Assembly: GCA_028821125.1 (NCBI GenBank)
Contig: JAPPHD010000140.1
Span: 1-55,071, forward strand
Direction of reading: 5' to 3'
Source: Gammaproteobacteria bacterium
GTDB lineage: Bacteria; Pseudomonadota; Gammaproteobacteria; Pseudomonadales; Azotimanducaceae
DNA length: 55,071 bases
Below, piece after piece: positions 20,514 to 41,548 of this stretch; position 1 is the stretch's first letter, and every line of letters starts with the position of its first letter. The notes beneath the pieces are model-generated. The model did not search any database. It saw only the letters and a list, made by a program, of their open reading frames with translations, and was not told the DNA's origin. The translations under genes were made by a program, and so were the position numbers.

Positions 20514-21476
20514 ATGATTCTGAAACTGGGGACCGAGGAATCCATGAAGCTTGCATTGGCCGGCGGCAAGGGGGCGAGCCTCGGCAGGCTGGTCCGGGCG
20601 GACTTTCCCGTACCCCCTGGCTTCGTGGTGACTACGCAAGCGTATACCGCCTACCTGGCCGCGAACGACTTGCAGCCGCGCATCGACGGGATTCTCAACG
20701 GCGTCGATTTTGCGTACCCGGAACAGGTGGAGCGGGAGACCGCGCGTATCCGCGATCTGTTCCGGGACGCCGCGATTCCCAAGCGGCTGGCGGGTGAGAT
20801 TCGGGAGGTCTACAGGTCGCTGGGTGACGATCCGTTTGTCGCCGTGCGTTCCTCCGGTACGGCGGAAGATCTGGCCGGGGCGTCCTTTGCGGGGCAGTAC
20901 GACACCTATCTCGACATCCGCGGCGCGCCGGCGCTGCTCGATGCGCTGCGCCGCTGCTGGGCATCGATGTGGACGGGGCGGGCGGTGGCGTACCGTCACC
21001 GGCACGGATTCGACGGGGAACAACCGAGTATCGCGGTGGTGGTCCAGGCGATGGTGGAAGCGGATGTCTCCGGCGTAATGTTCGTCGGCAACCCGATGAA
21101 CGCGCGAGCCGACGAGATCGTGGTGAACGCGAGTTGGGGGCTTGGCGAGGCGGTGGTCTCGGGTTTGGTCAACCCGGATGAGTACATCCTGGACGCGAAG
21201 ACCGGCAAGCCCAAGGCGCGGCGCATGGGCGACAAGGCGCTGACCATCCGGCGCGGCGCTGGGCCGGAGGGAGGTACAGTGCGGGTTCCAACCGAGCCCG
21301 CGCTTCAGGCGCGCCTGACGCTGAACGACGAGCAGCTCGAGGAATTGGCGGCGCTGGGAGCAAAGGCGACGGCGTTTTACGGCGGGTTGCCGCAGGATCT
21401 GGAATGGGCGCTGTCCGGGGGACGCTTCTGCCTGCTCCAGTCCCGCCCGATCACCGGCGTGGATTTCTCCCGGTAG
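20514..21476 (+). CDS. Stand-alone ATP-grasp (PPDK_N) subunit of a split dikinase-type phosphotransferase
   Basis: ATG 20514 follows a GGAG site and gives 320 residues, which is a complete PEP/pyruvate-binding ATP-grasp domain and nothing more. Motifs in order: GGKGASLGRL (residues 19-28), VPPGFVVTT, VRSSGTAEDLAGASFAGQ, QAMVEADVSGVMFVGNP, NASWGLGEAVVSG, and DLEWAL with the terminal LLQSRPIT. Full-length PEP synthases and rifampicin phosphotransferases continue from this point into central and swivelling-histidine domains; here the protein stops eight residues later. The missing half is found at 39,860-41,548. The nearest architectural precedent known to me is phenylphosphate synthase, whose ATP-binding and histidine parts are separate proteins. 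The substrate is unknown. It begins 61 bases after nlpD and marks the start of the accessory half. Confidence 0.85.
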   Translation: MILKLGTEESMKLALAGGKGASLGRLVRADFPVPPGFVVTTQAYTAYLAANDLQPRIDGILNGVDFAYPEQVERETARIRDLFRDAAIPKRLAGEIREVYRSLGDDPFVAVRSSGTAEDLAGASFAGQYDTYLDIRGAPALLDALRRCWASMWTGRAVAYRHRHGFDGEQPSIAVVVQAMVEADVSGVMFVGNPMNARADEIVVNASWGLGEAVVSGLVNPDEYILDAKTGKPKARRMGDKALTIRRGAGPEGGTVRVPTEPALQARLTLNDEQLEELAALGAKATAFYGGLPQDLEWALSGGRFCLLQSRPITGVDFSR

Positions 21477-21477
21477 T

Positions 21478-21491
21478 TAGACAGATGCCTA
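21478..21491. promoter_or_regulatory. Palindromic operator (site e) over the -10 of the SDR gene
   Basis: TAGACA-GA-TGCCTA matches the TRGACA-N2-TGTCTA palindrome seen upstream of other accessory units with one mismatch in the right arm. It begins two bases after the stop of the ATP-grasp gene. Its last bases overlap TATAAT (21,490-21,495), a perfect -10 hexamer, so binding here would be expected to repress the downstream SDR gene. Confidence 0.55.
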
Positions 21492-21527
21492 TAATTCCTT
21501 CGCGGCGTGTTCGAGTTTGGTGAGGTC

Positions 21528-22343
21528 ATGAAACTGAAAGACCGGATCGCGGTGATTACCGGTGGGGGCACCGGCATGGGGGCCGGCGCCGCTCGGGTGC
21601 TGGCGGCGCAGGGAGTCACTGCCTGTCTGCTCGGCCGTCGGCTGCAGGTGCTCAAGGACACCGCGGCAGCGGTCGGTGGAGGCGCCTTTCAATGCGATGT
21701 GTCGGACCCGGAGGCGCTCGACGCCGTATTCGATGCCATCGGGGACCGGTTCGGCACTCCGCGGCTACTGGTTCATGCCGCCGCCAACGGCAGTATGCCG
21801 CCGCTCCTTGCAGGGCGGGGTAAAGCCTGCTCCAGGGAGGCGCTGCGCGAGATTGTTGAAACCAATGTTCTCGGCACACTGTATGTCAACCAGGTGTTTG
21901 CCGATCGTTTGAGCCGAATCGAGCGGATGGAGGACGGCCTGCGCGGCCTGATCGTCAACGTTTCCTCGATCGGAGCGCTCGACGGCGTGGTCGGTAGCAG
22001 CTATGTCACGTCAAAGGCCGCGGTCAACGGCCTGTGCCTGAGCCTGGCCCGCGAGTTGAGCGGGTACGGCATCCGCGTCATGACCATAGCGCCCGGGGGT
22101 ATCGATACGCCGATGTTCCGACGGGGTGCCAACGAGGCCGTCCACGAACTGGTCGCTTCGACGGTACCGGCGCTGGAGCGTTTGGGCACCCCGCTCGAGT
22201 TCGGAGACCTGGTGCGGCACATCTGCGAAAACGACTACCTCAACGGCTCGATCATCCGCCTTGATGGCGGCATGCGGATTCCGTTTGTGAAAAACGTAGG
22301 TAAAGACACGGCAGTGCTCGAGCAGGCGGATGACAGGGGTTGA
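21528..22343 (+). CDS. Short-chain dehydrogenase/reductase (SDR)
   Basis: NAD(P)-dependent classical SDR of 271 residues. I chose ATG 21528 (TGAGG site at -10), starting MKLKDRIAVITGGGTGMG; an in-frame GTG at 21,507 would add seven residues. The cofactor motif TGGGTGMG, the NVSSIG serine and SYVTSK (YxxxK) are present. The C-terminal half (GIRVMTIAPGGIDTPMF, NGSIIRLDGGMRIP) resembles type-2 3-hydroxyacyl-CoA dehydrogenases (HSD10-like), so an alcohol or 3-hydroxyacyl-CoA oxidation is plausible. The substrate cannot be read from sequence. It lies under operator e and next to the split phosphotransferase subunit. Confidence 0.88.
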   Translation: MKLKDRIAVITGGGTGMGAGAARVLAAQGVTACLLGRRLQVLKDTAAAVGGGAFQCDVSDPEALDAVFDAIGDRFGTPRLLVHAAANGSMPPLLAGRGKACSREALREIVETNVLGTLYVNQVFADRLSRIERMEDGLRGLIVNVSSIGALDGVVGSSYVTSKAAVNGLCLSLARELSGYGIRVMTIAPGGIDTPMFRRGANEAVHELVASTVPALERLGTPLEFGDLVRHICENDYLNGSIIRLDGGMRIPFVKNVGKDTAVLEQADDRG

Positions 22344-22425
22344 CGTTCACCTGGTTTCAGGGTCGCCGCCAGAGCCATCGGGCCGACTCCGAACACCGGC
22401 ATCCCGGCGCCACAAAGTGCGTTTA

Positions 22426-22454
22426 TTGACAACCACGCCGGCTGCCGCTAGTTT
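22426..22454 (+). promoter_or_regulatory. Candidate promoter for the small protein-ferredoxin unit
   Basis: A perfect -35 hexamer TTGACA (22,426-22,431) is followed 17 bases later by TAGTTT (22,449-22,454), a weak -10. Operator a begins five bases downstream, at or near the transcription start. Confidence 0.4.
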
Positions 22455-22458
22455 TCTA

Positions 22459-22472
22459 TAGACATGTGTTGA
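22459..22472. promoter_or_regulatory. Palindromic operator (site a)
   Basis: TAGACA-TG-TGTTGA, with flanking TA bases extending the dyad. The left arm is identical to sites b and e and the spacing is the same. It lies immediately downstream of the candidate promoter for the small protein and ferredoxin genes. Confidence 0.55.
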
Positions 22473-22535
22473 TATACAGGATTCGTGTTCTCAGTGGTCG
22501 ATCTGCGGCCCTGTGCCTGGTAGCGGGAGGAATTC

Positions 22536-22868
22536 ATGAGCTTGCCGGAGCGGTTTTCAGAACTGGAAACCTACGTCGAAAAGTGGGACCAGCCGGACTA
22601 CAACGCCCGCTACGCGGTGCGCCTGGCTTCCTCCATGGAAGAACTCCGGGACTTCTATGCAGCCATGCTGGAGCGGGCCGAAGATATCAAGTCGTACCTG
22701 GACCGGAAATCCTTCGACCAGTACCAGGACGAGGACAGGCGATTGGCGCGCCTGATGTTCGCCGTCAGCGTGGTGGGGCCGGCCGTGGACATTTACCGCA
22801 GCCCCGTGGTGCCCGACAGCGGCGCCACCAGCTTCGAAATGGTTCTCGACGTGGAATTGCCCGGGTAG
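22536..22868 (+). CDS. Small protein of unknown function, paralogue of the protein at 41,673-42,008
   Basis: 110 residues, preceded by GGGAGG six bases before the ATG. I do not recognise a family. It shares a strong pattern with a second small protein in this window: LPERF, VEKWD, RAEDIKS, LARLMFA and a C-terminal VPD-G motif are all common to both. No signal peptide, membrane segment or cysteine cluster is visible. Composition suggests a compact helical protein with a charged surface. This copy is directly upstream of a [2Fe-2S] ferredoxin and the other is directly upstream of two Rieske oxygenase genes, so a role as an accessory subunit or chaperone of the oxygenase system is a reasonable inference. 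Confidence 0.8.
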   Translation: MSLPERFSELETYVEKWDQPDYNARYAVRLASSMEELRDFYAAMLERAEDIKSYLDRKSFDQYQDEDRRLARLMFAVSVVGPAVDIYRSPVVPDSGATSFEMVLDVELPG

Positions 22869-22942
22869 CGCCGGGGGCCAGACATGCCACCGAGGGGTTG
22901 CCGAAGGTCTGGTGTTGCGAAACCGCGGCAGGGGATCGCTCC

Positions 22943-23266
22943 ATGATCAATGTCACCTACGTTGAATTCAACGGCGCCGAGCACGAGGTGGAGGCGAAAC
23001 CCGGCGTAAGCCTGATGGAAGCGGCGCGCAGCAACAATGTGCCGGGGATACTGGCCGACTGCGGGGGCGCCTGCGCCTGCGCCACCTGCCATGTCATGGT
23101 CGAACCGGAATGGCTGGGCCGTCTCCCGTCGGTCTCCGAGGAGGAAGACACCATGCTGGAATTCGGCCTGGAGGAGCGCACCGAAGCGAGCCGTCTTTCC
23201 TGCCAGATCCAGGCGACCGCAGCGTTGGACGGAATCGTTCTGCGCCTGCCGGAATCGCAGTACTGA
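22943..23266 (+). CDS. Adrenodoxin/putidaredoxin-type [2Fe-2S] ferredoxin
   Basis: 107-residue electron carrier. The cluster ligands are visible as C-x5-C-x2-C in ADCGGACACATCH, with the fourth cysteine about 36 residues later in RLSCQIQ, the spacing of the adrenodoxin/putidaredoxin class. The N-terminal INVTYVEFNGAEHEVEA is the usual beta-grasp start. It probably donates electrons to one or both P450s or the Rieske enzymes of this region. No ferredoxin reductase gene is present in the window, so the reductase must lie elsewhere. It follows the small protein gene by 74 bases. Confidence 0.93.
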   Translation: MINVTYVEFNGAEHEVEAKPGVSLMEAARSNNVPGILADCGGACACATCHVMVEPEWLGRLPSVSEEEDTMLEFGLEERTEASRLSCQIQATAALDGIVLRLPESQY

Positions 23267-23356
23267 CCGGCCGATGCTTCAACCTGACGGGAGTCACACG
23301 CGATCGTGTACCTTTCCTGTTGATTACCAATCAGAATCCGACCGGGAGATGAGTGA

Positions 23357-24232
23357 ATGCAAACAAGGACGATAACCTACTACAGCGACGGCGATGTCGT
23401 GGTGGCGGACCTGCACGTACCCGACGATTTCGATGAAGAGAAACGATACCCGGTGATCCTGCAGTGCCAGGGATTTACCGGCATACGCATGATGGTGCAG
23501 CCGCTGTTCGCCGAGTATTTCGTCAACGCGGGTTTCCTCGCCCTGGCAATCGACTACCGGGGTTGGGGAGACAGTGGCGGCGAACGCGGCAGAATGGCGC
23601 CCTTCGAGCAGGTGGAGGATTGCCGGAACGGTTTTTCCTGGCTGGAGGCGCAACCCTTCGTGGACGCCGATCGCATGGGGCAGTTCGGGGCCAGTTTCGG
23701 TGCGCTGATCACCGCCTACACCATGGCTCTGGACAGCCGGGTGCAGGCCGGGGTGGCTACCGGTGGCGTCGCCGATGGCTACGAGGCCATCACCAACCAG
23801 CGTACTCCCGAACAGATGGCCGAGTGGGAACGGAAAATGGCCGAGGCCCGACAGAAGCGCGTCCTCACCAACGAGGTCGATCGCGACCTGACCGTCCTGG
23901 ACATCTTCATCGACCCGGACAGCCGTTCATGGGAGCCGGAATTCTGGGAAGCCGTGCCCGCCTGGCGCAACTGGATGGGCTTCGATTCCATGTCGCGGGT
24001 GGTGGATTTCCGGCCGATCGATGTGGCCCATCGAATCGGGAAACCGATTGCCTACTTTCTGGCCGAGCAGGACATAGTGGCCAACACGGACAGTTTCCGG
24101 GCACTGTACGAGGCCACCGCCGAGCCCAAGAAGCTGTATACGTACGATTGCGGGCACTACGACTGGTACGACGGCGAGTACCTGGAAAAGAGCATGAACG
24201 ATGCCTGTGCCTTCTTTCTGGAACACGTGTGA
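23357..24232 (+). CDS. Alpha/beta hydrolase
   Basis: 291 residues. GASFGA holds the nucleophile serine, AEQDIVA a likely acid and CGHYDWY the catalytic histidine near the C-terminus. AIDYRGWGDSGGERG resembles the oxyanion strand of Xaa-Pro peptidase/dienelactone-hydrolase-like families. No signal peptide is seen, so it is cytoplasmic. An ester- or lactone-hydrolysing step fits the neighbouring oxygenases but the substrate is unknown. The upstream 90 bases contain two short dyads, ACACG-N4-CGTGT and TGATT-N3-AATCA, of uncertain meaning. Confidence 0.85.
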   Translation: MQTRTITYYSDGDVVVADLHVPDDFDEEKRYPVILQCQGFTGIRMMVQPLFAEYFVNAGFLALAIDYRGWGDSGGERGRMAPFEQVEDCRNGFSWLEAQPFVDADRMGQFGASFGALITAYTMALDSRVQAGVATGGVADGYEAITNQRTPEQMAEWERKMAEARQKRVLTNEVDRDLTVLDIFIDPDSRSWEPEFWEAVPAWRNWMGFDSMSRVVDFRPIDVAHRIGKPIAYFLAEQDIVANTDSFRALYEATAEPKKLYTYDCGHYDWYDGEYLEKSMNDACAFFLEHV

Positions 24233-24433
24233 GTCCGCAGACGTTGCACAACCGAAATCGCTGCGCAAGCGCCACCCGGGCCGCGCCTTGCCACGGACCT
24301 TGTGCGGCACGCTGCAAGGCAGCGTATTCGTGACACGGGACACTGGATCGTCGTACGGTCCAAGTGGTGGCGATGGACCGCCCCGAAGGATGGAAACGCC
24401 AAAAAAACGGAACCAAATGCAGAGGCCAGGTGA

Positions 24434-25267
24434 ATGGTGAACATGCTCGTAGGGAAGGTGGCGGTGATCACCGGCGCCGCTCGAGGAATTGGCGAAGCCA
24501 CCGCGAGGCGCTTTGTTGAGGAGGGGGCACGAGTGGTCCTGGCTGACGTGCTCGATGACGCCGGCGAAACCGTGGCGGAAGGCCTGGGGAGCGCGGCGCT
24601 GTACCGCCACGCCGACGTGACGCAGTCCGGCCAGGTTCAGGCGCTCATAGATACGGCGGTCGAGGAATTCGGCGGGCTGCACATCATGTTCAACAACGCC
24701 GGCACCATGGGCACTCTTCAGGCGGACTTTCTGGAGGAAGACTTTCATGCCTTCCGCAAAACAATCGAGGTCAACCTGCTCGGCCCGATGCTTGGCGCGA
24801 GCTTCGCTGCCCGCCACATGGCGAAGAACGGCGGCGGCTGCATCCTGAGTACCGCGTCCAGTTCGGCGCTTTACGGCGGTTACGGCATCATCCCCTATCG
24901 CGCCACCAAGGCGGGCGTGGTGAGCATGACCCGGTCGCTGGCCATTGAACTCGGCAAGTACGGCATCCGGGTCAATTGCATCTCACCGGGCCCCACCCGC
25001 ACCCCGATGACCGCCATGGAGGGTGCGCCCGAAGACAGGGTGGAGGAACTGGTGGACATATCGATGGAGGCCATGCGGGGCAGGATGCCGCTCGGCCGGC
25101 TCGGCATGCCGGAGGATGTCGCCAACGCGGCCGTCTTCCTGGCGAGCGACCAGGCAGCGCAGATCACGGGCGTCGACCTGGCGGTCGATGGCGGAGAAAC
25201 CCTGGGCAATATGGAAAACACCGGGGAAATCATCCAAGACCGGATCCTGGAAGTGCTGGGCGGATAG
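24434..25267 (+). CDS. Short-chain dehydrogenase/reductase (SDR)
   Basis: Classical SDR of 277 residues: GAARGIG cofactor motif, NNAG, STASSSAL serine region, YRATK active-site pair and SPGPTRTPM. The C-terminus extends about 20 residues beyond the usual DGG end. It resembles 3-alpha/7-alpha-hydroxysteroid dehydrogenase and cyclopentanol-dehydrogenase-like SDRs, but that level of call is weak. An ATG nine bases downstream is an alternative start. The 200 bases upstream show no recognisable promoter, and none of the shared palindromes occurs there. Confidence 0.88.
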   Translation: MVNMLVGKVAVITGAARGIGEATARRFVEEGARVVLADVLDDAGETVAEGLGSAALYRHADVTQSGQVQALIDTAVEEFGGLHIMFNNAGTMGTLQADFLEEDFHAFRKTIEVNLLGPMLGASFAARHMAKNGGGCILSTASSSALYGGYGIIPYRATKAGVVSMTRSLAIELGKYGIRVNCISPGPTRTPMTAMEGAPEDRVEELVDISMEAMRGRMPLGRLGMPEDVANAAVFLASDQAAQITGVDLAVDGGETLGNMENTGEIIQDRILEVLGG

Positions 25268-25273
25268 CCGGCA

Positions 25274-25429
25274 TTACGGGGCGCCGCCTGCACCACTGGG
25301 GAACCCCAGACTTCCACCCGTGCCCCCCGCATCGAGAAAGCTGCGCGCGATCGCGTTACCGATACCGCTCGATCCACCGCAGACCAGAACGTTCAGGCCC
25401 GCGAAATCCAATGGGTTTTCTGCTTTCAT
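25274..25429 (-). pseudogene. Truncated SDR gene (N-terminal 51 residues only)
   Basis: ATG 25,429 overlaps the stop of the upstream SnoaL gene (ATGA), so it was once the second gene of that operon. The peptide begins as a normal SDR (FAGLNVLVCGGSSGIGNAIARS) but after about 37 residues turns into low-complexity Gly/Ser/Pro and stops, seven bases from the end of the convergent SDR gene. The rest of the fold, including YxxxK, is missing. Most likely a deletion or recombination joined it to the neighbouring locus. Confidence 0.65.
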
Positions 25430-25833: not shown

Positions 25834-25933
25834 GTGATTGTCGGAACGGCGAGCCGGCGTTGCGGGAAGCCATGATAACCGATGGGCGGTAGGATACTTT
25901 GGCCTCTATCCGGCCGGTTCCACGCGCCCGTTG

Positions 25934-26037: not shown

Positions 26038-26050
26038 CGGGGCGCCTCGC

Positions 26051-29159: not shown

Positions 29160-29162
29160 TGG

Positions 29163-29190: not shown

Positions 29191-29192
29191 CT

Positions 29193-29320: not shown

Positions 29321-30322
29321 CTACAGTTTGCCGGTTTTGGCGAGCAGTTCCGTGTCCGTTTCGCAGTCAATGATCCAGCCGCCCACTTCAGTCAAGCGAT
29401 CCGTATCCGTCACGGTGGCGATCTGCCCGGCCAACGCTGCCGCCGTTCCCGCATTGAACTTGCGCTCGGCCATGTGGCACAGGAGTTCGCGTTCCGCGGC
29501 CAGGCCACGTTTTACGCCCCGCTCTATGCCCTGCTGCAGCCAATCTGCTTCCCATTGCTTCGCCCGCTCCGCCAACAAAGACATCGTGTTCTCCCGTTCT
29601 CGTACTTCCTGTTGCATTTTCGCCACCATGCGATGGGCGGCGCCCGAACCCGGGAACATCCTTGGCGTCACCGCCGCAAGCCAGTCGACAATCGTCGTCA
29701 GTACGACGTTGACCGCAGCAGCATCCACGACTCCCGGTAGCCAGGCCGAAAGGTCGCGAATGTGACCGGGAATGCCGGCCGGCGAAGCCAAGGTGTCCAA
29801 CTCGAAAACCGTCGCGACCAGGTTTCGCGACGGCAGATCCTGTTGTGCCAGCCGCTGTACGTCAAGAGACAGATAGCTGAACGCCAGCGGCAGCAGTATC
29901 TCTCCATCGCGGCCCAGTTTGATTTCCTTCGCACCTCCGGGCGCGTTCCAGATCTGGTTGCCGGAGTGAATCACGACGGGAAGCAGGCGCAATTGGCCGC
30001 ACGCATCGAATCTCCGTTGCCGACTGAGCGCTTCGTAAGCCATTACCTTATAGCGCTGAACACGTACGGCCATGCTTTGATCGACGCTCGACTGAAATTC
30101 CAGCAGCAGCACCAGCGACCGGCCTGTCCCGTCGGAGTAGTTCACGCGCCAGGCGGCATCACCGTGGCGTTGCTCTCGGTCAGGACCGGACCAACTGGCG
30201 GACAACTCCTGCAAGGAGCCGAAATCGAGCCGCGACGCTACAGGTGTGACAAAGCCGCGCAACAAATGTTCCACAACTATTGGCAGGCCGAACAGGTGCT
30301 TCCATGCGGTGTCCAAATCCAT
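29321..30322 (-). CDS. Rpn/YhgA-family PD-(D/E)XK nuclease-like protein
   Basis: 333 residues from ATG 30,322 (MDLDTAWKHLF); the open frame continues upstream only to a TTG. The block HGDAAWRVNYSDG...LVLLLEFQSSVDQSMAVR contains the aspartate and E-x-Q pair of the Rpn (recombination-promoting nuclease, PF04754-like) active site, followed by VQRYKVMAYEAL. The C-terminal 60 residues (RELLCHMAERKFNAGTAAAL) resemble the DUF4351 tail. Such genes are mobile, and RpnA promotes RecA-independent recombination in E. coli. It is flanked by broken genes and stands apart from the catabolic operons. Confidence 0.85.
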   Translation of the reverse strand: MDLDTAWKHLFGLPIVVEHLLRGFVTPVASRLDFGSLQELSASWSGPDREQRHGDAAWRVNYSDGTGRSLVLLLEFQSSVDQSMAVRVQRYKVMAYEALSRQRRFDACGQLRLLPVVIHSGNQIWNAPGGAKEIKLGRDGEILLPLAFSYLSLDVQRLAQQDLPSRNLVATVFELDTLASPAGIPGHIRDLSAWLPGVVDAAAVNVVLTTIVDWLAAVTPRMFPGSGAAHRMVAKMQQEVRERENTMSLLAERAKQWEADWLQQGIERGVKRGLAAERELLCHMAERKFNAGTAAALAGQIATVTDTDRLTEVGGWIIDCETDTELLAKTGKL

Positions 30323-30343
30323 GGCCGAAGCGTAGGACGGCAA

Positions 30344-32579: not shown

Positions 32580-32583
32580 GCCC

Positions 32584-34458
32584 ATGGATCCGGCCATCGA
32601 GTCACTGGTAGGCGAGTACGACTTCGATCCCGCCGAACTGGTGGCGATCTATGCTCAAGAGCGCGACAAGAGGCTGCGCCCCGACAAGAACGAACAGTAC
32701 CTGGAAGTCACCGGCGCGTACTCGAAGTTCCTGGACGATCCCTACGCCGAACCCGCCACCGAACGGGAACCGCTCCTCGATTCGGTGGAGGTGCTGGTGA
32801 TCGGAGGTGGCTTCGGTGGCGTGCTGGGTGCGGTGTACCTGCGCGAACAGGGGTTCGAGGATATCCGCATCGTCGAAAAGGCCGGCGACTTCGGCGGCTG
32901 CTGGTACTGGAACCGCTATCCCGGCATCCGTTGCGATACGGAAGCCTACGTATACATGCCGCTGCTCGAGAAAATGGGCTATGTGCCGACGGAGAAGTAC
33001 GCCAGGGGATCGGAGATCCACGACTACATCGTACGCATCGCCCGGCGCTACGGGCTTTACGACGACGCCTGTTTCCAGACCAGCGTCACCGGCATGCGCT
33101 GGGACGACGGAGAGGGCGCCTGGCAGGTGACCACCGACCGGGGCGACCGCATGCGCGCCCGTTTCGTGCTGATGGCCAACGGCCCCCTGGACCGGGCGAA
33201 GCTGCCGGGCATCCCCGGCATCGACCGGTTCGGGGGCCACATGTTCCATACCTCCCGCTGGGACTACGGCTACACCGGCGGCGACTTCGACGGCAATCTC
33301 ACCGGTCTTGAGGACAAGAAAGTCGCCGTCCTCGGAACCGGCGCTTCCGCCGTGCAATGCGTGCCGCTGATCGCCGAAACGGCACAGCACCTGTATGTGA
33401 TTCAGCGCACCCCGGCCGCCGTCGAACCCCGGAACAACCGCCCGACGGATCCTCAATGGCGCGCCGCGCTGGCCCCAGGCTGGCAGGAAGCGCGCAAGGA
33501 GAACTTCAACCGCTGGGTGACGGGCGATCCGTCCGGCGAAGACATGGTGGACGACGGCTGGACGGCCATCGGCCGCCTGCTCGACCCCACCGCCACCTGG
33601 GCCGCCCCGCTGGTCGGCCGGGCGCTGACGCCGGAAGAGGGCAAGTACATCAGCGACATCCTGGACGACAAGCAGATGAACGCCCTGCGGCAGTGGATCG
33701 ACGATGTGGTGGACGATCCCGAAACGGCGGCGAAGCTCAAGCCCTGGCACAGGCGCTGGTGCAAGCGGCCGCTGTTTCACGACGACTACTACGCCACATT
33801 CAACCGGCCCAACGTCACGTTGGTGGATACGGACGGCCGCGGCGTCGAGAAGATCACGGAAACCGGCATCGTCGCGGACGGCGTGGAATACGAAGTGGAC
33901 TGCCTCATCTTCGCGAGCGGGTTCGAGGTGGGCACCGCCTACCGCCGCCGGGCGGGATACGACCCGGTCGGGCGCGACGGCCGCAGGCTGAGCGAGCATT
34001 GGGCCAACGGCATGCGCACCTTCAAGGGGTTGCACATCCGCGACTTCCCCAACTGCTTCTATATCGGTTTCGGCCAGAACGCCAACGCGACCAATTTCTG
34101 TTTTATTCTCGATGAGCAGGCGCAGCACGTCGCCTATGTGCTGACCGAAATGCGCCGCCGCGGCGCGCGCCGGGTCGAGCCGACGCCCGAGGCGGTGGAT
34201 GCCTATGTGGAGGAAGTCAGCCCCCTGGCCATCAGCCAACTGGAATTCTGGGTCGATTGCACGCCGGGTTATTTCAACGGCGAGGGAGACCACGACGACC
34301 CCAACGGCTTTTTCGCCAACCTGCACCCGGCGGGCACGGTGGTGTTCTACGACCAACTGCGTGCCTGGCGGGCGGAGGGGAACCTGCGCGGCCTGGAACT
34401 CGATGGCCGCGAGTCGGACGGTGCCGCGGTGGCCAGCAACGATGCCGCCAGTGCCTGA
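32584..34458 (+). CDS. Baeyer-Villiger-type flavin monooxygenase
   Basis: 624-residue FAD/NADPH monooxygenase. An N-terminal extension of about 65 residues precedes the FAD Rossmann motif VIGGGFGG (residues 72-79). FGGHMFHTSRWD (216-227) satisfies the BVMO fingerprint F-x-G-x3-H-x3-W-D. A second Rossmann motif, VLGTGASAVQ (249-258), binds NADPH. The long N-terminus resembles cyclopentadecanone/steroid/acetone-monooxygenase-type BVMOs that act on bulky ketones. It would insert oxygen next to a ketone to make an ester or lactone, which the local hydrolases could open. It lies five bases after the SnoaL gene and 18 bases before the next one. Confidence 0.92.
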   Translation: MDPAIESLVGEYDFDPAELVAIYAQERDKRLRPDKNEQYLEVTGAYSKFLDDPYAEPATEREPLLDSVEVLVIGGGFGGVLGAVYLREQGFEDIRIVEKAGDFGGCWYWNRYPGIRCDTEAYVYMPLLEKMGYVPTEKYARGSEIHDYIVRIARRYGLYDDACFQTSVTGMRWDDGEGAWQVTTDRGDRMRARFVLMANGPLDRAKLPGIPGIDRFGGHMFHTSRWDYGYTGGDFDGNLTGLEDKKVAVLGTGASAVQCVPLIAETAQHLYVIQRTPAAVEPRNNRPTDPQWRAALAPGWQEARKENFNRWVTGDPSGEDMVDDGWTAIGRLLDPTATWAAPLVGRALTPEEGKYISDILDDKQMNALRQWIDDVVDDPETAAKLKPWHRRWCKRPLFHDDYYATFNRPNVTLVDTDGRGVEKITETGIVADGVEYEVDCLIFASGFEVGTAYRRRAGYDPVGRDGRRLSEHWANGMRTFKGLHIRDFPNCFYIGFGQNANATNFCFILDEQAQHVAYVLTEMRRRGARRVEPTPEAVDAYVEEVSPLAISQLEFWVDCTPGYFNGEGDHDDPNGFFANLHPAGTVVFYDQLRAWRAEGNLRGLELDGRESDGAAVASNDAASA

Positions 34459-34476
34459 CAACCCGAGGGAACGCCG

Positions 34477-34896
34477 ATGACCGGAACCCTGACCAATGCC
34501 GACGTGACACGCCGGGTAATCGAACTGGTGTCGGCCTTCCGGTTCGGCGAACTGGAACCGTATATACACGAAGACATCGTCATGGAAGCCCCGTACCAGG
34601 CCTTCCACGCCGGCCCCATGCGGCGGGGCCGGGCAAAGTTCATGGAGGGCATGTCGTTCGTCCCGAACGTGTTCAAGGCGTTCAAGCTGAACATCCACGA
34701 ACTCTACGACTGCCCGGAACAGGACGTGGTGGTCTTCGAACAGACCAGCATGGGCGTATTCGCCGGCAACGGCGCGACCTATCAGAACCGTTACATCATG
34801 GTGTTCGGATTCCGGGACGGGCAGATCGTGCTGTGGCGCGAGTTCTACAATCCGGAGATCATGAACGCGGGCATGCTGTTCATGCTCGACGGTTGA
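34477..34896 (+). CDS. SnoaL/NTF2-fold protein
   Basis: 139 residues, preceded by GAGGGAA. YIHEDIVMEAPYQAFHAG, NIHELYDC and ATYQNRYIMVFGFRDGQIVLWREFYNPE show the SnoaL-like fold and close relationship to the protein at 25,426-25,833. Third gene of the R2 operon after the monooxygenase. Its last 17 bases overlap the 3' end of the convergent AMP-dependent ligase gene. Function unknown; ketosteroid-isomerase-like chemistry is one option. Confidence 0.85.
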   Translation: MTGTLTNADVTRRVIELVSAFRFGELEPYIHEDIVMEAPYQAFHAGPMRRGRAKFMEGMSFVPNVFKAFKLNIHELYDCPEQDVVVFEQTSMGVFAGNGATYQNRYIMVFGFRDGQIVLWREFYNPEIMNAGMLFMLDG

Positions 34897-36637
34897 GCCG
34901 GCCCGACTCCAGCTCGGTTACAAGCTGCTCCCTGAGCCTGTATTTTTCGACCTTCATGGTCTGGGTGACCGGCAGTGCCTCGACGATGCGCACATGTCTC
35001 GGGCGCATGAATTTCGGCAGCGCGGTCCGTGCCCATTCACTGATTTCCCGCGCGCTCAGGGACGCGGTGCGCTCCGGCACGATGAAGGCGCCGATGTCGT
35101 CCTCGGAGCCTTCGCCCGCGGGAACGGCCACCACGGCGCAGTGGCTCACCCCCGGGTGGCCGTTGAGCAGCGTTTCCACCTGGGTAGCGGCGACGTTCTC
35201 GCCCCGCACCCGGATGAAACCCTGTTCGCGGTCCATGAAGTACAGGGCGCCATTGTCGTCGGCGGCGACGATGTCCGAAGAATGAAAACAGCCGTCCCGC
35301 AGCGACGCCGCGGTGGCGTCGGGCTTGTTCAGGTATCCCCTGAACAGGATGCCGGGCTGCACCGGCCGCATGGTGAGCCTGCCCGGCGTACCGGCCGGCG
35401 CCGGCTTGCCGTCCCGGTCTGTTACGACCGGTTCGTAGACGCCCGGCGTCCTGCCCATGAAACCGTCCGGCACCGGTTTCGAACCGTCGAGGATGGCGTG
35501 CTCGCCCGCCATCGCCCGGACGATGGCGCGGATCTCCTGTTTGTCGTAACCCTTCCAGAGATGTTTCGGGGTGCCCGGAGCATCGCCGAGTTCATCGATC
35601 AGTCCCGTGGCCCCGAGGCCGAGTTCCGTGGACCCGTAGCCGACGGCTATGAAGTCGAGGCCGAAACGGCGGGCCAGCGTATTGTGATTGGCGGGCAATG
35701 GCTGCACGTGGGCACGAATGATCGGGTTCTCCCGGTCGCCTGCACGCTCCGGCTGCTGCATCAGCCAGTCGTTCATCACATCGAGCAGCAGTGTGATGCT
35801 GGCGCCGCTCAGGCGAATGCGGCGCCAGAAATCGGCGGGGCTGAAGCGGTTCCAGACGGCGATGGAGGCGCCTGCCCAGGCAGCCCGCACCAGGTTCGCG
35901 TAGGCGCCGCCGATGTGGTAGAGCGGCAGATCGCAGTACAGCACATCGTCGCGGTGGGTCATGGTCGCGAGCGCCGTGCCGAAAGCCCGCAACCACCCGT
36001 GCGGGTGGATGACGCCCTTGGGATTTCCCGTGGTGCCGGAGGTATAGACGACGCTGCAGAGATCGTCGGTCTCGATTGCCGCCGTGGGCCTTGTCTCGCC
36101 GGCGGCTGTCAATTCCGAAAAGAGAGTCGACCGGAAGTCCCGGTGGGGCAGGGCCTGTTCGTACCGAGGGTCGAAGTCGGCCTCGTCCCTGGCCGGCGCG
36201 TGCACGATCACCCGGGGGATGCCGGTGGTCAGTCTGCCCCGGCAGTCGTTCAGAGCGGGCACGAGATGCCGGTCCGCGATCAGCACCGGGGGTGCGAGAT
36301 CGTCGATGACATAGGCGAGCAGGTCACCCACGAACCGGTAATTGATCGGGCAATACAGCGCACCCGTTTTCCAGGCTGCGAACATGCCGAGCGCGCAGAC
36401 CAGTCCGTTGGTGGACAGCACCGCCACCCGGTCTCCCCGCCCGATGCCGAGGGCGGCGAGCGAGTTGGCGACCCGGTTGGTGAGGAGATCGAACTCCCGG
36501 TAGGTGAACCGCCGCTCGTCTTCGCCGTAGAAAAAGAACGGCCGGTCGGGCTGCGTCCGCGCCCAGGCGTCGAAGCGGTGCAGAACGGTGGGTTCGTCCG
36601 TCAGCAACCGTTCGCGAACCAGTTCGCCTGCAATCAT
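34880..36637 (-). CDS. AMP-dependent acyl-CoA synthetase/ligase
   Basis: ANL-superfamily enzyme of 585 residues from ATG 36,637; the long upstream extension of the frame is antisense to an SDR gene and is spurious. YTSGTTGNPKGVIHPHG is the AMP-binding P-loop, GYGSTELGLG the A5-type motif, and RLTMRP...RGYLNKPDAT, DREQGFIRVRGENVAATQVE and QTMKVEKYRLR complete the core and C-terminal subdomain including the catalytic lysine (TMKVEKYRLR). It resembles FadD17/FadD3- or carnitine-CoA-ligase (CaiC)-like enzymes and probably activates a carboxylic acid released from the substrate. It is divergent from the SDR at 36,841. Confidence 0.9.
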   Translation of the reverse strand: MIAGELVRERLLTDEPTVLHRFDAWARTQPDRPFFFYGEDERRFTYREFDLLTNRVANSLAALGIGRGDRVAVLSTNGLVCALGMFAAWKTGALYCPINYRFVGDLLAYVIDDLAPPVLIADRHLVPALNDCRGRLTTGIPRVIVHAPARDEADFDPRYEQALPHRDFRSTLFSELTAAGETRPTAAIETDDLCSVVYTSGTTGNPKGVIHPHGWLRAFGTALATMTHRDDVLYCDLPLYHIGGAYANLVRAAWAGASIAVWNRFSPADFWRRIRLSGASITLLLDVMNDWLMQQPERAGDRENPIIRAHVQPLPANHNTLARRFGLDFIAVGYGSTELGLGATGLIDELGDAPGTPKHLWKGYDKQEIRAIVRAMAGEHAILDGSKPVPDGFMGRTPGVYEPVVTDRDGKPAPAGTPGRLTMRPVQPGILFRGYLNKPDATAASLRDGCFHSSDIVAADDNGALYFMDREQGFIRVRGENVAATQVETLLNGHPGVSHCAVVAVPAGEGSEDDIGAFIVPERTASLSAREISEWARTALPKFMRPRHVRIVEALPVTQTMKVEKYRLREQLVTELESGRLNRRA

Positions 36638-36840
36638 GATCGTCGTACCGGAAGGATCACTGGAATCATGCGCTCGGACGGCGTCTATTGCCGGCGCGAC
36701 CCGCGCACCCTTTGCGCGTCGAATGGGTCGCCTGCCGCCCTGAACCAAGTTAGCGGGGATGTCGTGGGAAAGCCAGCGCCTTGCGGCCGGCTTGCAGATC
36801 GCGCCGCCCCTGCAGGGTTGCGCCACGGGAGGAGTTGACC

Positions 36841-37704
36841 ATGTCTTTTTTTGACTTGTCGAACAAGGTTGCCGTGGTGACCGGCGCCACAAAGGGCATC
36901 GGCCGCGGGATTGTCGAACGGCTTGCCGAGCACGGCGCCAGCGTTGTGGTGTCGAGCCGCCGTCAGGCCGCTTGCGACGAAGTGGCGGCGGAACTCGACG
37001 AAGACTATGGGAAAAACTGTATGCGGATCGCGCACGGGGTCGCCTGCGATATCGAGCGCCTCGAGCAGATCGAGCGGCTCGCCGAGCGCTCGGCCGAACA
37101 CTTCGATGGCATCGACATTCTCGTGGCCAATGCCGCCGTACTGCCCTTCGTGGGCGCCTCGAGGGACACGCCCCCGGCACTCTTCGAGCGCATTCTGACC
37201 AAAAACCTGCACAACAGTTTTCGGCTCTGCCAGGCGGTTCGCCCCCACATGGCAAGGCGCGGCGGCGGCAGCATCGTGCTGATCGGTTCGCTGGCCGGGC
37301 TCGTTCCCTTTCCCACCCTGATGGCGTACTCCATCGCCAAAGCCGGGCTGGCTCACCTGGCGCGCTGCCTGGCGGACGAGTTTGCCCCGGACGGCATCAC
37401 CGTCAACTGCGTTTCGCCGGGGTCGATCCGCACCGCCTCCTCGGCCCGGTCGGGCGTGGACGACGACAACCGGCGGTCCGCAGCCGTTCCGCTGCAACGA
37501 GTCGGCGAACCGGACGACATCGCCGGCGCGGTGATCTACCTGGCTTCCGCTGCCGGCTCCTACGTCACCGGCGTCACCCTGCCCGTGGACGGCGGCCGGT
37601 CGCAACTGTCGCCGGCAGACCGAGGGGTACCCACCACACACCGCAGGCTCTGGGGCACGGACCTCAACGCTGCATCCGGGTCGGCCGACGAGAGTCTCGA
37701 ATGA
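36841..37704 (+). CDS. Short-chain dehydrogenase/reductase (SDR)
   Basis: 287 residues from ATG 36,841 with GGGAGG nine bases upstream. GATKGIG, ANAAVLP, LIGSLAGLVPF, YSIAK and SPGSIRT are the SDR landmarks, followed by VTGVTLPVDGGRS and an unusual 30-residue C-terminal tail. It resembles gluconate 5-dehydrogenase/HSD-like SDRs. The 200-base divergent gap with the ligase gene contains GGACGGCGTCTATTG at about 36,676-36,690, which looks like the shared operator with one base deleted. Confidence 0.87.
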   Translation: MSFFDLSNKVAVVTGATKGIGRGIVERLAEHGASVVVSSRRQAACDEVAAELDEDYGKNCMRIAHGVACDIERLEQIERLAERSAEHFDGIDILVANAAVLPFVGASRDTPPALFERILTKNLHNSFRLCQAVRPHMARRGGGSIVLIGSLAGLVPFPTLMAYSIAKAGLAHLARCLADEFAPDGITVNCVSPGSIRTASSARSGVDDDNRRSAAVPLQRVGEPDDIAGAVIYLASAAGSYVTGVTLPVDGGRSQLSPADRGVPTTHRRLWGTDLNAASGSADESLE

Positions 37705-37830
37705 ACCCGTTGCGTGCCGTGATTCCCGCGTGCCGCGCCACCCGGTGCTTTCACTACTCTTGTCAGCCTCGCTACGTTCATTCATGAACAGGTCCGGCTA
37801 GACTCGGTTGGATCCAGGAGGGGATAAGCA

Positions 37831-39510
37831 ATGCAAATGACCGATACGCCCGAAGCCCTGACCGCCAACGTGGAAATGCCCAGGGTGGTCGAAGACCCCG
37901 ACTCGGTGCCTTGGGCGGACGAGGCGGATCTCGTGGTCGTCGGCTTCGGCGGCGCCGGGGTGGTGGCGGCGCTCGAAGCGGTGCAATCCGGAGCGAGCGT
38001 GCTGGCCGTGGACCGCTTCACGGGTGGTGGCGCCACGGCACTGAGCGGCGGCGTCGTCTATGCGGGCGGTACGCGCCACCAGCGGGAAGCGGGCTTCGAC
38101 GATACCGCGGAGGAGATGTTCAAGTACCTGTCGTTCGAAGGCGTTCCGGTCCGGGACGATACTCTGCGGCGCTTCTGCGAATCGAGCAACGACAACATCG
38201 AATGGCTGGAACAGTTCGGCGTCCGCTTCGGCTCGACGTTCTACGGGGAGCGCATTGCCTATCCGCCGGACGGCTTCTTCCTCTATTACACCGGCATGGA
38301 GAAGTTCCGCGCCGAAGCCGCCCGGGTCGCCCCGCGGGGCCACCGGACGGTCGGCAAGGGGCCCACCGGACATCGGTACTTCGCCCCCCTGAAGGAGGCG
38401 GCGCTCGGCGGCGGGGTTCGCCTGATGCCCCATGCGCCGGTACGCCGCCTGATCGTGGACGGGAACGAACGTGTGGTCGGCGTGGAAATCCAGGCCATGC
38501 CCCGGGAGAAGCAGGGAGAGCACGAGGCCCTGTGCCGCCGCGTCAACCCGTACAAGATGGGCAATGGAGCAACCGCTGAACGGGCCATCGCCGAGTGCCG
38601 GGAATTCGAGCAGCGCCACGACGGCGACCGTCAGTCAATCCGTGCCCGCCGAGGCGTGGTGCTCGCGGCGGGCGGTTACAACTACAACTTGGAACTCTTC
38701 AGCCGCTACCGGCCGATCATCCGGGATGTCTATCGCGAGATCGTGCGCGGCGGATCGATGGGCTGTGACGGCAGCGGCATCGAACTCGGCACCACGGTCG
38801 GCGGCGCGCTCAGCCACATGGACCGGCTGTTCGTGACCAAGCCGGTCTCGCCGCCGGAATCCTTCGTTTTCGGGGTGCTCGTAAACGCCGAAGGAAAGCG
38901 CTACATCACGGAGGATGCCTACCTGGGCAATGTCGGCTGCATCACCTCCGAACAGAGCCGTCTCGGCATGGCCTGGCTGATTCTCGACCGCCGCCTGTTT
39001 CGCAAGGGCCTGAAGGAACTGCTCTGGCCGCCGAAGAACGCGCTGTCCTGGTACGGCATGCCGGCGCTCATCAACATTTTCGCGGGCGGAACCAAACGTG
39101 CCCGCACGATCGAGGCGCTGGCGGAGCGCTGTGACGTGGATGCGGCGGGGCTGCGCCGAACCATCGACGATTACAATCGATACGCGTCGCGGGGTGAAGA
39201 CCCCGAGCACGGCAAGCTGCCGGTGCATCTCGAGCCCCTCGACTCTCCGCCCTACGTTGCACTCAACATGTCGATGCGCAACAAATGGGCGTTCTCCGGC
39301 ACCATGCCCTACGGCGGACTGACCGTCGACGAAGACACCGGCGCCGTTACCCGCGAGGACGGCACGGTGATCGGCGGCCTCTACGCTGCCGGCCGCACCG
39401 CGGTGGGGGTCTGTTCGGAGAGCAACTTCAGCGGGCTGTCGATCGCCGATACGGTCTTCTCGGGTCGCCGCGCGGCGCGGGCCGCGTTGCGGCTCAACGA
39501 GCCCAATTGA
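37831..39510 (+). CDS. FAD-dependent dehydrogenase, KstD/fumarate-reductase-like
   Basis: 559-residue flavoprotein of the FAD_binding_2 family. After a 33-residue leader, LVVVGFGGAGVVAALEAVQSGASVLAVDR is the FAD Rossmann motif. FTGGGATALSGGVVYAGGT, VVLAAGGYNYN and the C-terminal GGLYAAGRTAVGVCSESNFSGLSIADTVFSGRRAA are typical of 3-ketosteroid-delta1-dehydrogenases and related flavoproteins. The C-terminal block deviates from canonical KstD, so the exact reaction is uncertain; introduction of a C=C next to a ketone is the leading idea. A stop codon and a DUF433 stub follow. Confidence 0.88.
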   Translation: MQMTDTPEALTANVEMPRVVEDPDSVPWADEADLVVVGFGGAGVVAALEAVQSGASVLAVDRFTGGGATALSGGVVYAGGTRHQREAGFDDTAEEMFKYLSFEGVPVRDDTLRRFCESSNDNIEWLEQFGVRFGSTFYGERIAYPPDGFFLYYTGMEKFRAEAARVAPRGHRTVGKGPTGHRYFAPLKEAALGGGVRLMPHAPVRRLIVDGNERVVGVEIQAMPREKQGEHEALCRRVNPYKMGNGATAERAIAECREFEQRHDGDRQSIRARRGVVLAAGGYNYNLELFSRYRPIIRDVYREIVRGGSMGCDGSGIELGTTVGGALSHMDRLFVTKPVSPPESFVFGVLVNAEGKRYITEDAYLGNVGCITSEQSRLGMAWLILDRRLFRKGLKELLWPPKNALSWYGMPALINIFAGGTKRARTIEALAERCDVDAAGLRRTIDDYNRYASRGEDPEHGKLPVHLEPLDSPPYVALNMSMRNKWAFSGTMPYGGLTVDEDTGAVTREDGTVIGGLYAAGRTAVGVCSESNFSGLSIADTVFSGRRAARAALRLNEPN

Positions 39511-39680
39511 AAAAAGCCCTGACTCAAGGGATCGAACAGCTTGACCGCATAACGGTCCGGACCGACGTATTCAACGGCAAGCCGATTGTCCGTGACTTGC
39601 GCTTCGTCGCCAGACCTCAGCCGACAATCGCGCATGCCAATCGCTCCAGTAACGGAAACAGACAGTTGATTTTCGCCTAA
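39507..39680 (+). pseudogene. DUF433-like antitoxin fragment
   Basis: A short frame beginning at TTG 39,507, overlapping the previous stop, reads LDRITVRTDVFNGKPIVRDLRFV, close to the DUF433 N-terminus (LDRITxxPxVxGGKPxIRGTRIPV). It then loses similarity and ends at TAA. No toxin partner is present. Probably a remnant of a small mobile toxin-antitoxin gene. Confidence 0.4.
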
Positions 39681-39859
39681 CTTCATTTAAACACCCCATT
39701 GTTCTGTACTTTATTCGAACTAAAGACAGGCCTGTTTTGTCACGAAAAGTCAGTGCGGTTGACGTTCGAGCGAATCGTATGGGAGTAACGCCCCTGACCC
39801 GAAATCCGATTTGACTCTGACCCCAAATTCAGACTTTTCAAGAGTCGCCAGCGTGTCCC
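39681..39859. other. AT-richer spacer with short repeats
   Basis: Between the DUF433 stub and the convergent phosphotransferase subunit. It contains the 10-base palindrome ACAGGCCTGT (about 39,735-39,744) and an imperfect 22-base tandem pair, CTGACCCGAAATCC / CTGACCCCAAATTC, near 39,794 and 39,816. No gene is seen, and no standard intrinsic terminator, although the ACAGGCCTGTTTT stem-plus-T run could act as a weak one. Confidence 0.4.
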
Positions 39860-41548
39860 TTATGGCGGTGCCGGGCCGCCTGTCGGGCTTGCCTGGAGGA
39901 TTTCGACGATGCCGGTCGATCCGTCCATGCGGACCCGGTCGCCGGTGCGCAGGATATTGCTGCCGTTGCCGGTATTCATGACGCAGGGGATGCCCAGTTC
40001 ACGGGCCACCACGGCGCCGTGACTGAGCGAGCCGCCCATGTCGATGACCGCACCGGATGCAAGCATGAGCAAACCCGCCCAACTCGGATCCGTTGTCGGG
40101 CATACCAGGATTTCCCCTGATTCGATGCGCGCGTCGCCGTCAGAGCCGGTCAGCACGCGGACGCGCCCTTCAGCGATTCCCCGACTCACACCCATGCCGG
40201 CGATGGTTTTCGGCATTCCGGGTTCGCCCGTTTCCGCGTCCTCCGGCTTCGTCTCCTGTGGTTGCCTGTCGAGCGGTTTCGGGACCCCGCTGAAGCTGAA
40301 CGGCAATTCGATATTCAGATAGGTTTCCCGTTGCGCGATGCGCCGGGCGATCGTTTCGCGTAATGCCGCGGGGTCATCGCGAAACGCGGGGTCTGCAATC
40401 TCCGACAAGGTCAGGTGAAAGATGTGCCGGGCGGATTCCAGTGCCGCCGCGTTCGCCAGTCGATCCCCCAACGCCCGCGCGGCGCATCGCGCCGCATCGA
40501 TAACGCGCAGGAAACTGGCTTTGCTGGTCTCGCGCAATTGCACGAAGCGCCGGGCCAGGCCAAGGAGGAGCCTCGCCTTCGTGCGTTGCGCAACGGGTAG
40601 CTGCGCCAGGAACGACCGTTGCGCTTCGGCGCGCGAGCGTTCCCGGGCGCGCTGCAGGCTGCCTGGCGACTGTTCCTCCGGTCTTACGCGCATCTCCTCG
40701 ATCTGGCTCGCGAGCAGGGTGGGGTCTTCGCGCCACGAAGGCTCGGAGAGCTGCCCTTCCGCGGTTCCGTGGAAGCCGTGCCGCCGGATGAAGTCGTCCA
40801 GCCCCGTCCGGCCGTGCGCCACCTCCCACAGGTCATTGAGCACTTCCGTTTCGTCGATGCCGCGGGCGCCGGTTACCAGTTCGGTTTCGAGGCCGGGATG
40901 TCCGGCCGATGCCACAAGCCTCGCCAGGCGGGCGTAGAGCAGTCCCATGATCATGCCCGTTGCCATGTGGGTTTCCATGATGCGCACGAATCGGTCGTGG
41001 GCATCGACGATCGTATCCACGGCGCCTTCGATCGTCCGGGGCTTGCCCGCACCCACCGCGCGCGTCCACCAGCGATCGGTCTCGAGGCGCAGTGCCGCCT
41101 GCCTGCGGGGGAGCCACAGCGCCGTCCATAGCATTCGTGCAACGCGCGAGACCGGGAACCGGAAAGCGGGCCGGCGCCCGCCAACGGCGGGGCCGTCGCC
41201 GTCCTTGCTCATCATGACCTCTTCCATCGTGCTCCTGGAGTACAGCGGCACCCGGTCAAAGAACGGCTGTTGCGCGCCAAGGTTGATTGCCGCCTGGCCG
41301 AAGAACGCACCGAAGAAGAAGTCTTCCGGCCGCTCCGGCATTTTCACTTCGGAACGGCCACAGGCGCCCACGGCCCGGAAACCCCGGAGTACGCCCAGGT
41401 TGTTGGGCTCGAACCAGAACGTGAATCCCAGCGCGGTACAGACTCCCGGGATGGCCTCGGCGATGTTGTTGCGCGACCAGTTGGTGTGATCGGGCACGTT
41501 GAGATGAAGGGGGTCGAGGTCGGGTTTGCCCGATCCTGTGGGTTCCAT
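39860..41548 (-). CDS. Stand-alone PEP-utilising (swivelling histidine) subunit of a split dikinase-type phosphotransferase
   Basis: 562 residues. The N-terminus (NWSRNNIAEAIPGVCTALGF) matches the start of the central, substrate-binding domain of rifampicin phosphotransferase-like enzymes. A long helical region follows (about 60-430). The C-terminal swivelling domain has VCPTTDPSWAGLLMLASG, then MGGSLSHGAVVARELGIPCV with the phospho-accepting His510. No ATP-grasp domain is present; that part is the gene at 20,514. The gene is divergent to the small protein-Rieske operon, and operator d lies between them, tying this subunit to the oxygenase regulon. By analogy it would transfer a phosphoryl group to a hydroxyl on an organic substrate. 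Confidence 0.85.
   Translation of the reverse strand: MEPTGSGKPDLDPLHLNVPDHTNWSRNNIAEAIPGVCTALGFTFWFEPNNLGVLRGFRAVGACGRSEVKMPERPEDFFFGAFFGQAAINLGAQQPFFDRVPLYSRSTMEEVMMSKDGDGPAVGGRRPAFRFPVSRVARMLWTALWLPRRQAALRLETDRWWTRAVGAGKPRTIEGAVDTIVDAHDRFVRIMETHMATGMIMGLLYARLARLVASAGHPGLETELVTGARGIDETEVLNDLWEVAHGRTGLDDFIRRHGFHGTAEGQLSEPSWREDPTLLASQIEEMRVRPEEQSPGSLQRARERSRAEAQRSFLAQLPVAQRTKARLLLGLARRFVQLRETSKASFLRVIDAARCAARALGDRLANAAALESARHIFHLTLSEIADPAFRDDPAALRETIARRIAQRETYLNIELPFSFSGVPKPLDRQPQETKPEDAETGEPGMPKTIAGMGVSRGIAEGRVRVLTGSDGDARIESGEILVCPTTDPSWAGLLMLASGAVIDMGGSLSHGAVVARELGIPCVMNTGNGSNILRTGDRVRMDGSTGIVEILQASPTGGPAPP

Follow-up and report, generated by a model that had tools for sequence, protein, structure and literature searches.

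A probable two-component dikinase with halves of different ancestry in an oxygenase-rich gene cluster of an Azotimanducaceae bacterium

Two separate genes on a 55,071-nucleotide contig (JAPPHD010000140.1 of assembly GCA_028821125.1, referred to as the window) from a gammaproteobacterium of the family Azotimanducaceae probably encode the two components of a single small-molecule dikinase, which would phosphorylate a hydroxyl group of a terpenoid- or steroid-like intermediate. P0001 would contribute the ATP-binding domain, and P0002 the acceptor and swivelling phosphohistidine domains. We infer the partnership from the complementary single domains of the two proteins, their complete set of catalytic residues, their location in one syntenic block, their joint decay in a sister genome and the fusion of corresponding parts in two actinobacterial proteins. 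The division of a dikinase acting on catabolic substrates into two proteins is known from PpsAB, CreHI and HpeHI, also beside cytochrome P450 (P450) and SDR genes. New are the mixed ancestry of the halves, the clade to which the acceptor half belongs and the decay shared with a relative of the DUF7064/DUF7065 proteins.

An earlier note, made from the sequence alone, described P0001 as consisting of PPDK_N only and P0002 as the central and swivel part with His510, encoded 18 kb apart. This description held: the open reading frames lie as given in the table, 18.4 kb apart on opposite strands, and each protein has a single Pfam match, P0001 to PPDK_N (PF01326, E 4e-94, residues 15-314) and P0002 to PEP-utilizers (PF00391, E 6e-22). 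P0001 ends in QSRPITGVDFSR, and H510 of P0002 is located in GGSLSHGAVVAREL. The residues tested in the rifampin phosphotransferase (RPH) of Listeria are Lys22, Arg117, Thr136, Arg666, Glu667, Lys670 and His825 (PMC4844700, in excerpt). In an alignment to this enzyme none of the seven is lost; they correspond to K19, R112 and T131 of P0001 and to R339, E340, K343 and H510 of P0002. In the first tree sets all 29 rows of the ATP side share K19 and R112, and 28 of them have Thr at the position of T131; all 43 rows of the acceptor side share R339 and H510, with Glu at the position of E340 in 30 and Lys at that of K343 in 19. Comparison of P0002 with a 76% identical, intact orthologue on contig L075 yielded a ratio of nonsynonymous to synonymous substitution rates of 0.21, indicative of purifying selection (neighbouring genes 0.07-0.28). 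P0001 and P0002 are genes and not chance open reading frames, as follows from the domains, the intact catalytic residues and the selection on P0002. Neither reaches the cut-off of 999 bits of the NCBIfam rifampin phosphotransferase equivalog (270 bits for P0001, 127 for P0002). Among individual proteins P0001 scores 201-205 bits with RPH and 175 with HpeI (9goj); its best solved match is the PEP synthase 8a8e, with 241.

P0001 and P0002 belong to one syntenic block, which occurs in nearly the same order in the sister genome G057, where the intact genes are 78-95% identical. For the comparison 27 block genes were counted, after three mobile-type genes absent from G057 (presumably an Rpn-like nuclease, a toxin and an antitoxin) had been set aside. 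In G057 24 of the 27 are intact (coverage 0.92-1.0; three of them contain stops, located upstream of the probable start or within the final residues). The three decayed genes are P0001, P0002 and the DUF7064/DUF7065 relative at 50926-52227. Both kinase halves are deletion remnants: of P0001, residues 1-34 and about 251-318 persist in different frames, and of P0002, residues 9-43. The remnants occupy the same places as the genes in the window, that of P0001 directly before the SDR gene SDR1 and that of P0002 between the FAD (flavin adenine dinucleotide) enzyme and hyp127. This position makes it probable that P0001 is older than the divergence of the two species.

The two halves have different closest relatives. 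The nearest relatives of P0001 in the tree of the ATP side are three fused kinases from the family genome G002 (58-62% identity, support 99/94), encoded in open frames of 924-965 residues; M. branderi comes next (98/93). In approximately unbiased (AU) tests, for which the groups were chosen after the first trees, in which long branches are present and whose very small p values mean "rejected" and are not to be taken literally, placement of P0001 in the HpeI/CreI/PpsB clade was rejected (p-AU 2e-120, or 1e-5 with the type-A fused rows, described below, included), as was its grouping with the ATP domains of the type-A fusions (p-AU 1e-13). For the acceptor part, the tree places P0002 and its L075 orthologue in a 16-row clade (100/97), here called type A. 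Fourteen of its members are stand-alone proteins and two are fusions; apart from P0002 and L075, they come from Actinobacteria and the betaproteobacterial Diaphorobacter. A union of P0002 and its orthologue with the G002 kinases nearest to P0001 was rejected for the whole acceptor part (p-AU 2e-7, or 6e-6 with M. branderi added) and for the last 330 residues (p-AU 4e-56). HpeH, CreH and PpsA (five rows) form a separate clade with P0002 outside it, as judged from tree support (100/100). The tree sets exclude truncated copies of fused genes as well as the short dikinases, whose ATP side is too distant; L105 was included in the acceptor trees and left out of the count of type-A loci. The fission of one kinase gene, considered as an origin of the pair, is rejected by the trees of both sides, and the single enzyme cut in two that the earlier note had implied must be given up because the nearest relatives of its two parts differ. 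Judged from these sequences, a fused kinase lineage within the host's family would have supplied the ATP half, and the acceptor half combined with it would derive from a clade of mostly stand-alone proteins, known otherwise chiefly from Actinobacteria.

Stand-alone relatives of P0002, annotated as "PEP-utilizing enzyme", are 32-38% identical to it over nearly the full length, including the N-terminal part. Among fused RPH-like proteins, matches to the first approximately 180 residues of P0002 were reported for two actinobacterial type-A fusions (L103 and L106) only. In these, an acceptor of the P0002 type is fused to a full PPDK_N domain, which groups with HpeI/CreI/PpsB (100/99). A type-A acceptor can therefore probably work with a full PPDK_N domain. 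A query with the N-terminal part of P0002 matched two of 390 genomes of the order, the window's own and one with E 8e-4 and three stops; the latter match was taken as spurious. A P0002-type profile matched one of 398 genomes of the phylum (E 1e-10) among the best seven or fewer candidates of each listed genome. Diaphorobacter, represented solely in the plasmid collection, escapes these genome searches; the type is therefore rare among the genomes sampled but not absent from the phylum. A scan of a contig collection, sensitive to close relatives only, revealed four loci. Seven plasmid records covered 80% of P0002, and the small type-A sample draws on six of these; the seventh (H6), an unannotated record of R. 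koreensis, has the same match values as H7. In the literature searched, as far as its accessible portions go, nothing was recognised as describing type-A acceptor proteins.

The host genome (5.28 Mb in 193 contigs, 97.3% complete) encodes two proteins with PPDK_N (PF01326), P0001 and a 592-residue short dikinase on contig C21, and P0001 is the only one of the two without its own swivel domain. Four proteins contain the swivel domain PF00391: P0002, the C21 dikinase, a 316-residue protein on C21 and a protein on C136 which we take to be PtsP-like. A full-length fused paralogue elsewhere in the genome would have counted against the earlier note; the searches for PF01326 and PF00391 disclosed no RPH-like fusion in this genome at its stated completeness. 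Fused-length frames (876-1041 residues) with a dikinase match occur in five of eight other congeneric genomes (G033, G057, G061, G063, G064). These five include G057, with its decayed split pair, and the window's genome has no such match. The fused-length dikinase of G057 (L125) belongs to a different clade from P0001.

Several observations weigh against a partnership of P0001 and P0002. The chance that both kinase halves would be among three decayed of 27 genes is 0.0085, but this concerns one genome and a pattern noticed after the fact, and the value increases to 15/435 = 0.034 if the absent mobile-type genes are counted as losses. In G057 the remainder of the cluster persists although the kinase is lost; the kinase is therefore not essential to the cluster, and the phosphorylated compound may be a side substrate, or the step may be bypassed. 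In the metagenome-assembled genome (MAG) that contains L075, neither an orthologue of P0001 (best match 38%) nor the DUF7064/DUF7065 relative was found. SDR1, the neighbour of P0001, was likewise not found there, so that the left part of the cluster may be unassembled and the two absences uninformative. The components of known two-component dikinases share congruent phylogenies, according to an excerpt of PMC9618137, unlike P0001 and P0002. All seven retrieved stand-alone type-A loci besides the window and L075 (L076, L077, L078, L099, L101, L102, L104) have a short dikinase, composed of PPDK_N and swivel domain, within about 3.5 kb. The window contains none, but the homologue on C21 is 46-54% identical to those of the type-A loci. 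Moreover, a companion of about 200 residues is present in six of six loci compared (all but L104), and the 211-residue neighbour of the C21 dikinase is 32-39% identical to these proteins.

The C21 dikinase must accordingly be taken seriously as a partner, since its module holds homologues of both the dikinase and the companion: P0002 might be phosphorylated in trans by the two C21 proteins, as its relatives presumably are by theirs, with P0001 having another role or serving both systems. We consider this unlikely, though by no means negligible. The C21 module has a swivel protein of its own and an orphan subunit, and a dikinase of the C21 type survives in G057 (L085), from which P0002 has gone; nor does the proposal explain why P0001 occupies the same block as P0002 and decayed together with it. 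It is improbable that the proteins are functionally unrelated, P0001 being the leftover of a fused kinase and P0002 idle or served by some other partner. The fused state of the nearest relatives of P0001, the distance between the genes, their opposite orientation and the fact that the two halves were seen intact together nowhere but in the window agree with such a history. However, P0001 retains a complete ATP-grasp domain with its catalytic residues, its remnant in G057 indicates an age probably greater than the species split, and P0002 is under purifying selection. Very little credence is given to an ATP-dependent condensing or activating enzyme that, like the prodigiosin ligases PigC and RedH, would proceed via an activated phosphate without release of a phosphoester. 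The NCBIfam models of PigC and RedH match both halves (253 and 256 bits for P0001, 118 and 134 for P0002), but far under their cut-offs of 1300 and 1350; models named for PEP synthase score higher on both (309 and 163 bits), and no second building block was recognised in the cluster.

In a two-component dikinase formed by P0001 and P0002, P0001 would bind ATP by its ATP-grasp domain. H510 on the swivel domain of P0002 would dock on P0001 and take over the β-phosphate, whereupon AMP and inorganic phosphate would leave. The swivel would then turn to the acceptor domain of P0002 itself, where R339, E340 and K343 are predicted to help pass the phosphate to a substrate hydroxyl. The substrate would be a hydrophobic and oxygenated product of the cluster's oxygenases, probably an intermediate of terpenoid- or steroid-like structure. 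This sequence of events is modelled by homology on RPH and HpeHI (excerpts of PMC4844700 and PMC12167813). The location of the halves on separate proteins is no obstacle, since for HpeH and HpeI no stable complex was seen in the experiments of the latter excerpt.

P0001 and P0002 resemble HpeHI, CreHI and PpsAB in having the ATP-grasp and acceptor-swivel parts on separate proteins with the same division of domains, in the conserved histidine and in the catabolic setting (PMC12167813, in part). They differ from these adjacent gene pairs, which act on phenolic substrates, by the distance between the genes. HpeHI acts in aerobic catabolism, and its authors suggest that phosphorylation may serve to trap the substrate in the cell (same partial source). 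For P0001 and P0002 the earlier note had proposed trapping or activation for elimination, either of which may apply. Phenylphosphate synthase had been named correctly by the earlier note as a precedent, PpsAB being a known split dikinase. The reference loci for the three systems (L140 to L144) are genuine or probable, and names such as CreHI-like reflect a reading of the gene neighbourhood: L140 is a Rhodococcus plasmid, one of whose proteins shares 97.5% identity with the HpeI portion of 9goj, L141 contains phenylphosphate carboxylase genes, L142 and L144 contain P450-linked CreHI-like pairs and L143 an Hpe-like pair. The catabolic-looking setting noted earlier was borne out, but not its novelty, as the CreHI-like pairs of L142 and L144 lie beside P450 and SDR genes; the claim is further weakened by type-A relatives on plasmids that adjoin Rieske, P450, SDR and acyl-CoA dehydrogenase genes. 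With RPH and fused RPH-like kinases the pair shares all three domains (ATP-grasp, acceptor, swivel) together with the catalytic residues, although RPH is one polypeptide. Like the stand-alone type-A proteins of actinobacterial and Diaphorobacter catabolic loci, P0002 belongs to the type-A clade, and like most of them it has a DUF7064/DUF7065 relative encoded in its cluster, but the ATP protein in its cluster is a swivel-less domain of another lineage and not a short dikinase that brings a swivel of its own. The 25-hydroxysteroid kinase of Sterolibacterium likewise uses ATP to phosphorylate a compound of steroid catabolism. That enzyme, considered as a possible two-part model, was dropped; it is not a dikinase, uses a ternary-complex mechanism, forms ATP from ADP in the reverse reaction and has little similarity to known phosphotransferases (PMC8449060, in excerpt).

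The third decayed gene, at 50926-52227, encodes a protein without a Pfam match. hhalign relates it with 99.1% to one group of DUF7064/DUF7065-type proteins encoded near dikinase genes and gave no support for the two other of the three groups. By blastp it matches a DUF7064/DUF7065-type protein of M. branderi (E 4e-27), whose gene is some 2.5 kb away from a fused kinase, the closest relative of P0001 after those of G002, and one beside a P0002-type gene (E 3e-9). PF23213 has three matches in the whole host genome, none of them this gene. DUF7064/DUF7065 genes are present near six of nine type-A loci examined (L076, L077, L099, L101, L102, L103) and none was found near L104 and L106; at L078 a single neighbour was scanned for these families and matched the swivel family instead. 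This neighbour (L078 12060-13031), beside the type-A acceptor, has a C-terminal swivel domain (PF00391) and an N-terminus that looks DUF7065-like by eye. Among fused kinases of other types, one of six loci has such a gene nearby (L100, and not L071, L072, L107, L108 or L135), a count obtained by a different method and often on shorter stretches than that for type A. The DUF7064/DUF7065 protein probably serves the same step as the kinase pair. No paper naming DUF7064 or DUF7065 was found in the open-licence literature searched.

Thirty genes were counted in the cluster from P0001 to 54895; selected ones are listed in the table, and further members include more SDRs, a sulfotransferase-family protein and a dehydrogenase of the pyrroloquinoline quinone type. 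The predicted functions suggest a terpenoid- or steroid-like substrate without proving one. Among 206 genomes of the family, a stringent Rieske query detected the cluster in two, G057 and that of the window; its middle part occurs on L075, which belongs to MAG SB0676_bin_28.

Table. Proposed dikinase components and selected genes of the surrounding cluster (positions in the window)
Feature	Position	Strand	Remarks
ATP-side subunit P0001	20514..21476	+	320 residues, ATP-grasp/PPDK_N only, no swivel domain
SDR (SDR1), first intact conserved gene beside P0001	21507..22343	+	86% identical in G057, there after P0001 remnant
Baeyer-Villiger monooxygenase, PtlE-like	32584..34458	+	NCBIfam NF045818 725 bits, below cut-off 1100; matches to solved Baeyer-Villiger monooxygenases
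Acyl-CoA ligase-like AMP-binding enzyme	34880..36640	-	PF00501, E 5e-54
FAD enzyme	37831..39510	+	best solved match 3-ketosteroid delta4-(5alpha)-dehydrogenase 4at0, E 3e-58
Acceptor-and-swivel subunit P0002	39860..41548	-	562 residues, no ATP-grasp domain
Swivelling phosphohistidine domain of P0002	39911..40123	-	Pfam match, residues 476-546
Codon of P0002 H510, predicted phosphohistidine	40019..40021	-	His in 43/43 aligned acceptor rows
Codons of P0002 R339, E340, K343, predicted acceptor-site catalytic residues	40520..40534	-	equivalents of Arg666/Glu667/Lys670 of RPH-Lm
Rieske ring-hydroxylating oxygenase alpha subunit, first	42071-43399	+	PF00848/PF00355; NCBIfam oxygenase models below cut-offs
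Rieske ring-hydroxylating oxygenase alpha subunit, second	43456-44745	+	NCBIfam oxygenase models below cut-offs
Cytochrome P450, first	47511-48782	+	NCBIfam P450 models below cut-offs; many solved P450s, including steroid C26-monooxygenase
Cytochrome P450, second	48834-50150	-	NCBIfam P450 models below cut-offs
DUF7064/DUF7065-related protein, candidate accessory	50926..52227	+	hhalign and blastp to DUF7064/7065-type proteins; remnant in G057

The cluster starts directly after genes at 18112-20514 which we take to be pcm, DUF368 and nlpD-like; in related bacteria rpoS often follows such genes. In G057 none of these genes turned up in the 14 kb that precede the block, so the setting of the cluster differs there. 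Two genes for small paralogues without a Pfam match, at 22536-22868 shortly after P0001 and SDR1 and at 41625-42008 divergent beside P0002, are both kept in G057 and are about 55-57% identical (each compared with the G057 copy of the other). The genes at 29321-30343 and 44830-45382, presumably an Rpn-like nuclease gene and a toxin-antitoxin-like pair, are perhaps late insertions, because they are wholly missing from the G057 block.

The C21 module (L073 6264-12668) comprises, apart from the 592-residue dikinase and its 211-residue companion, a 513-residue protein without a Pfam match and the 316-residue swivel protein, and it adjoins biotin-carboxylase genes, an AMP-ligase gene and SurE. It is a second multi-part dikinase and resembles a phosphorylate-then-carboxylate pathway with further-split subunits. 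Genes of SurE-type nucleotidases lie directly beside those of swivel-domain proteins at L105 4286-7185 and L073 11718-13478; the nucleotidase is possibly the phosphatase for the phosphorylated product.

Small-molecule dikinases have been characterised for rifampicin and phenolics. In a broader proposal, which we offer tentatively and with more doubt than confidence, the mixed-lineage dikinase and the DUF7064/DUF7065 protein phosphorylate a terpenoid- or steroid-like alcohol in aerobic catabolism and represent a wider, undescribed class with exchangeable type-A acceptors. The partners of these acceptors would then comprise three or more kinds of ATP protein, namely short dikinases, the HpeI-like domains of the fusions and, in the present pair, a domain from a fused lineage of RPH-like type. 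If the pairing of P0001 with P0002 is real, its mixed ancestry shows that ATP and acceptor modules are exchangeable between lineages. The finding also draws attention to acceptor subunits of an apparently undescribed clade, encoded in Rieske/P450/SDR loci, including those on mycobacterial plasmids, and the joint decay of both halves and the DUF7064/DUF7065 relative provides a functional lead for that family.

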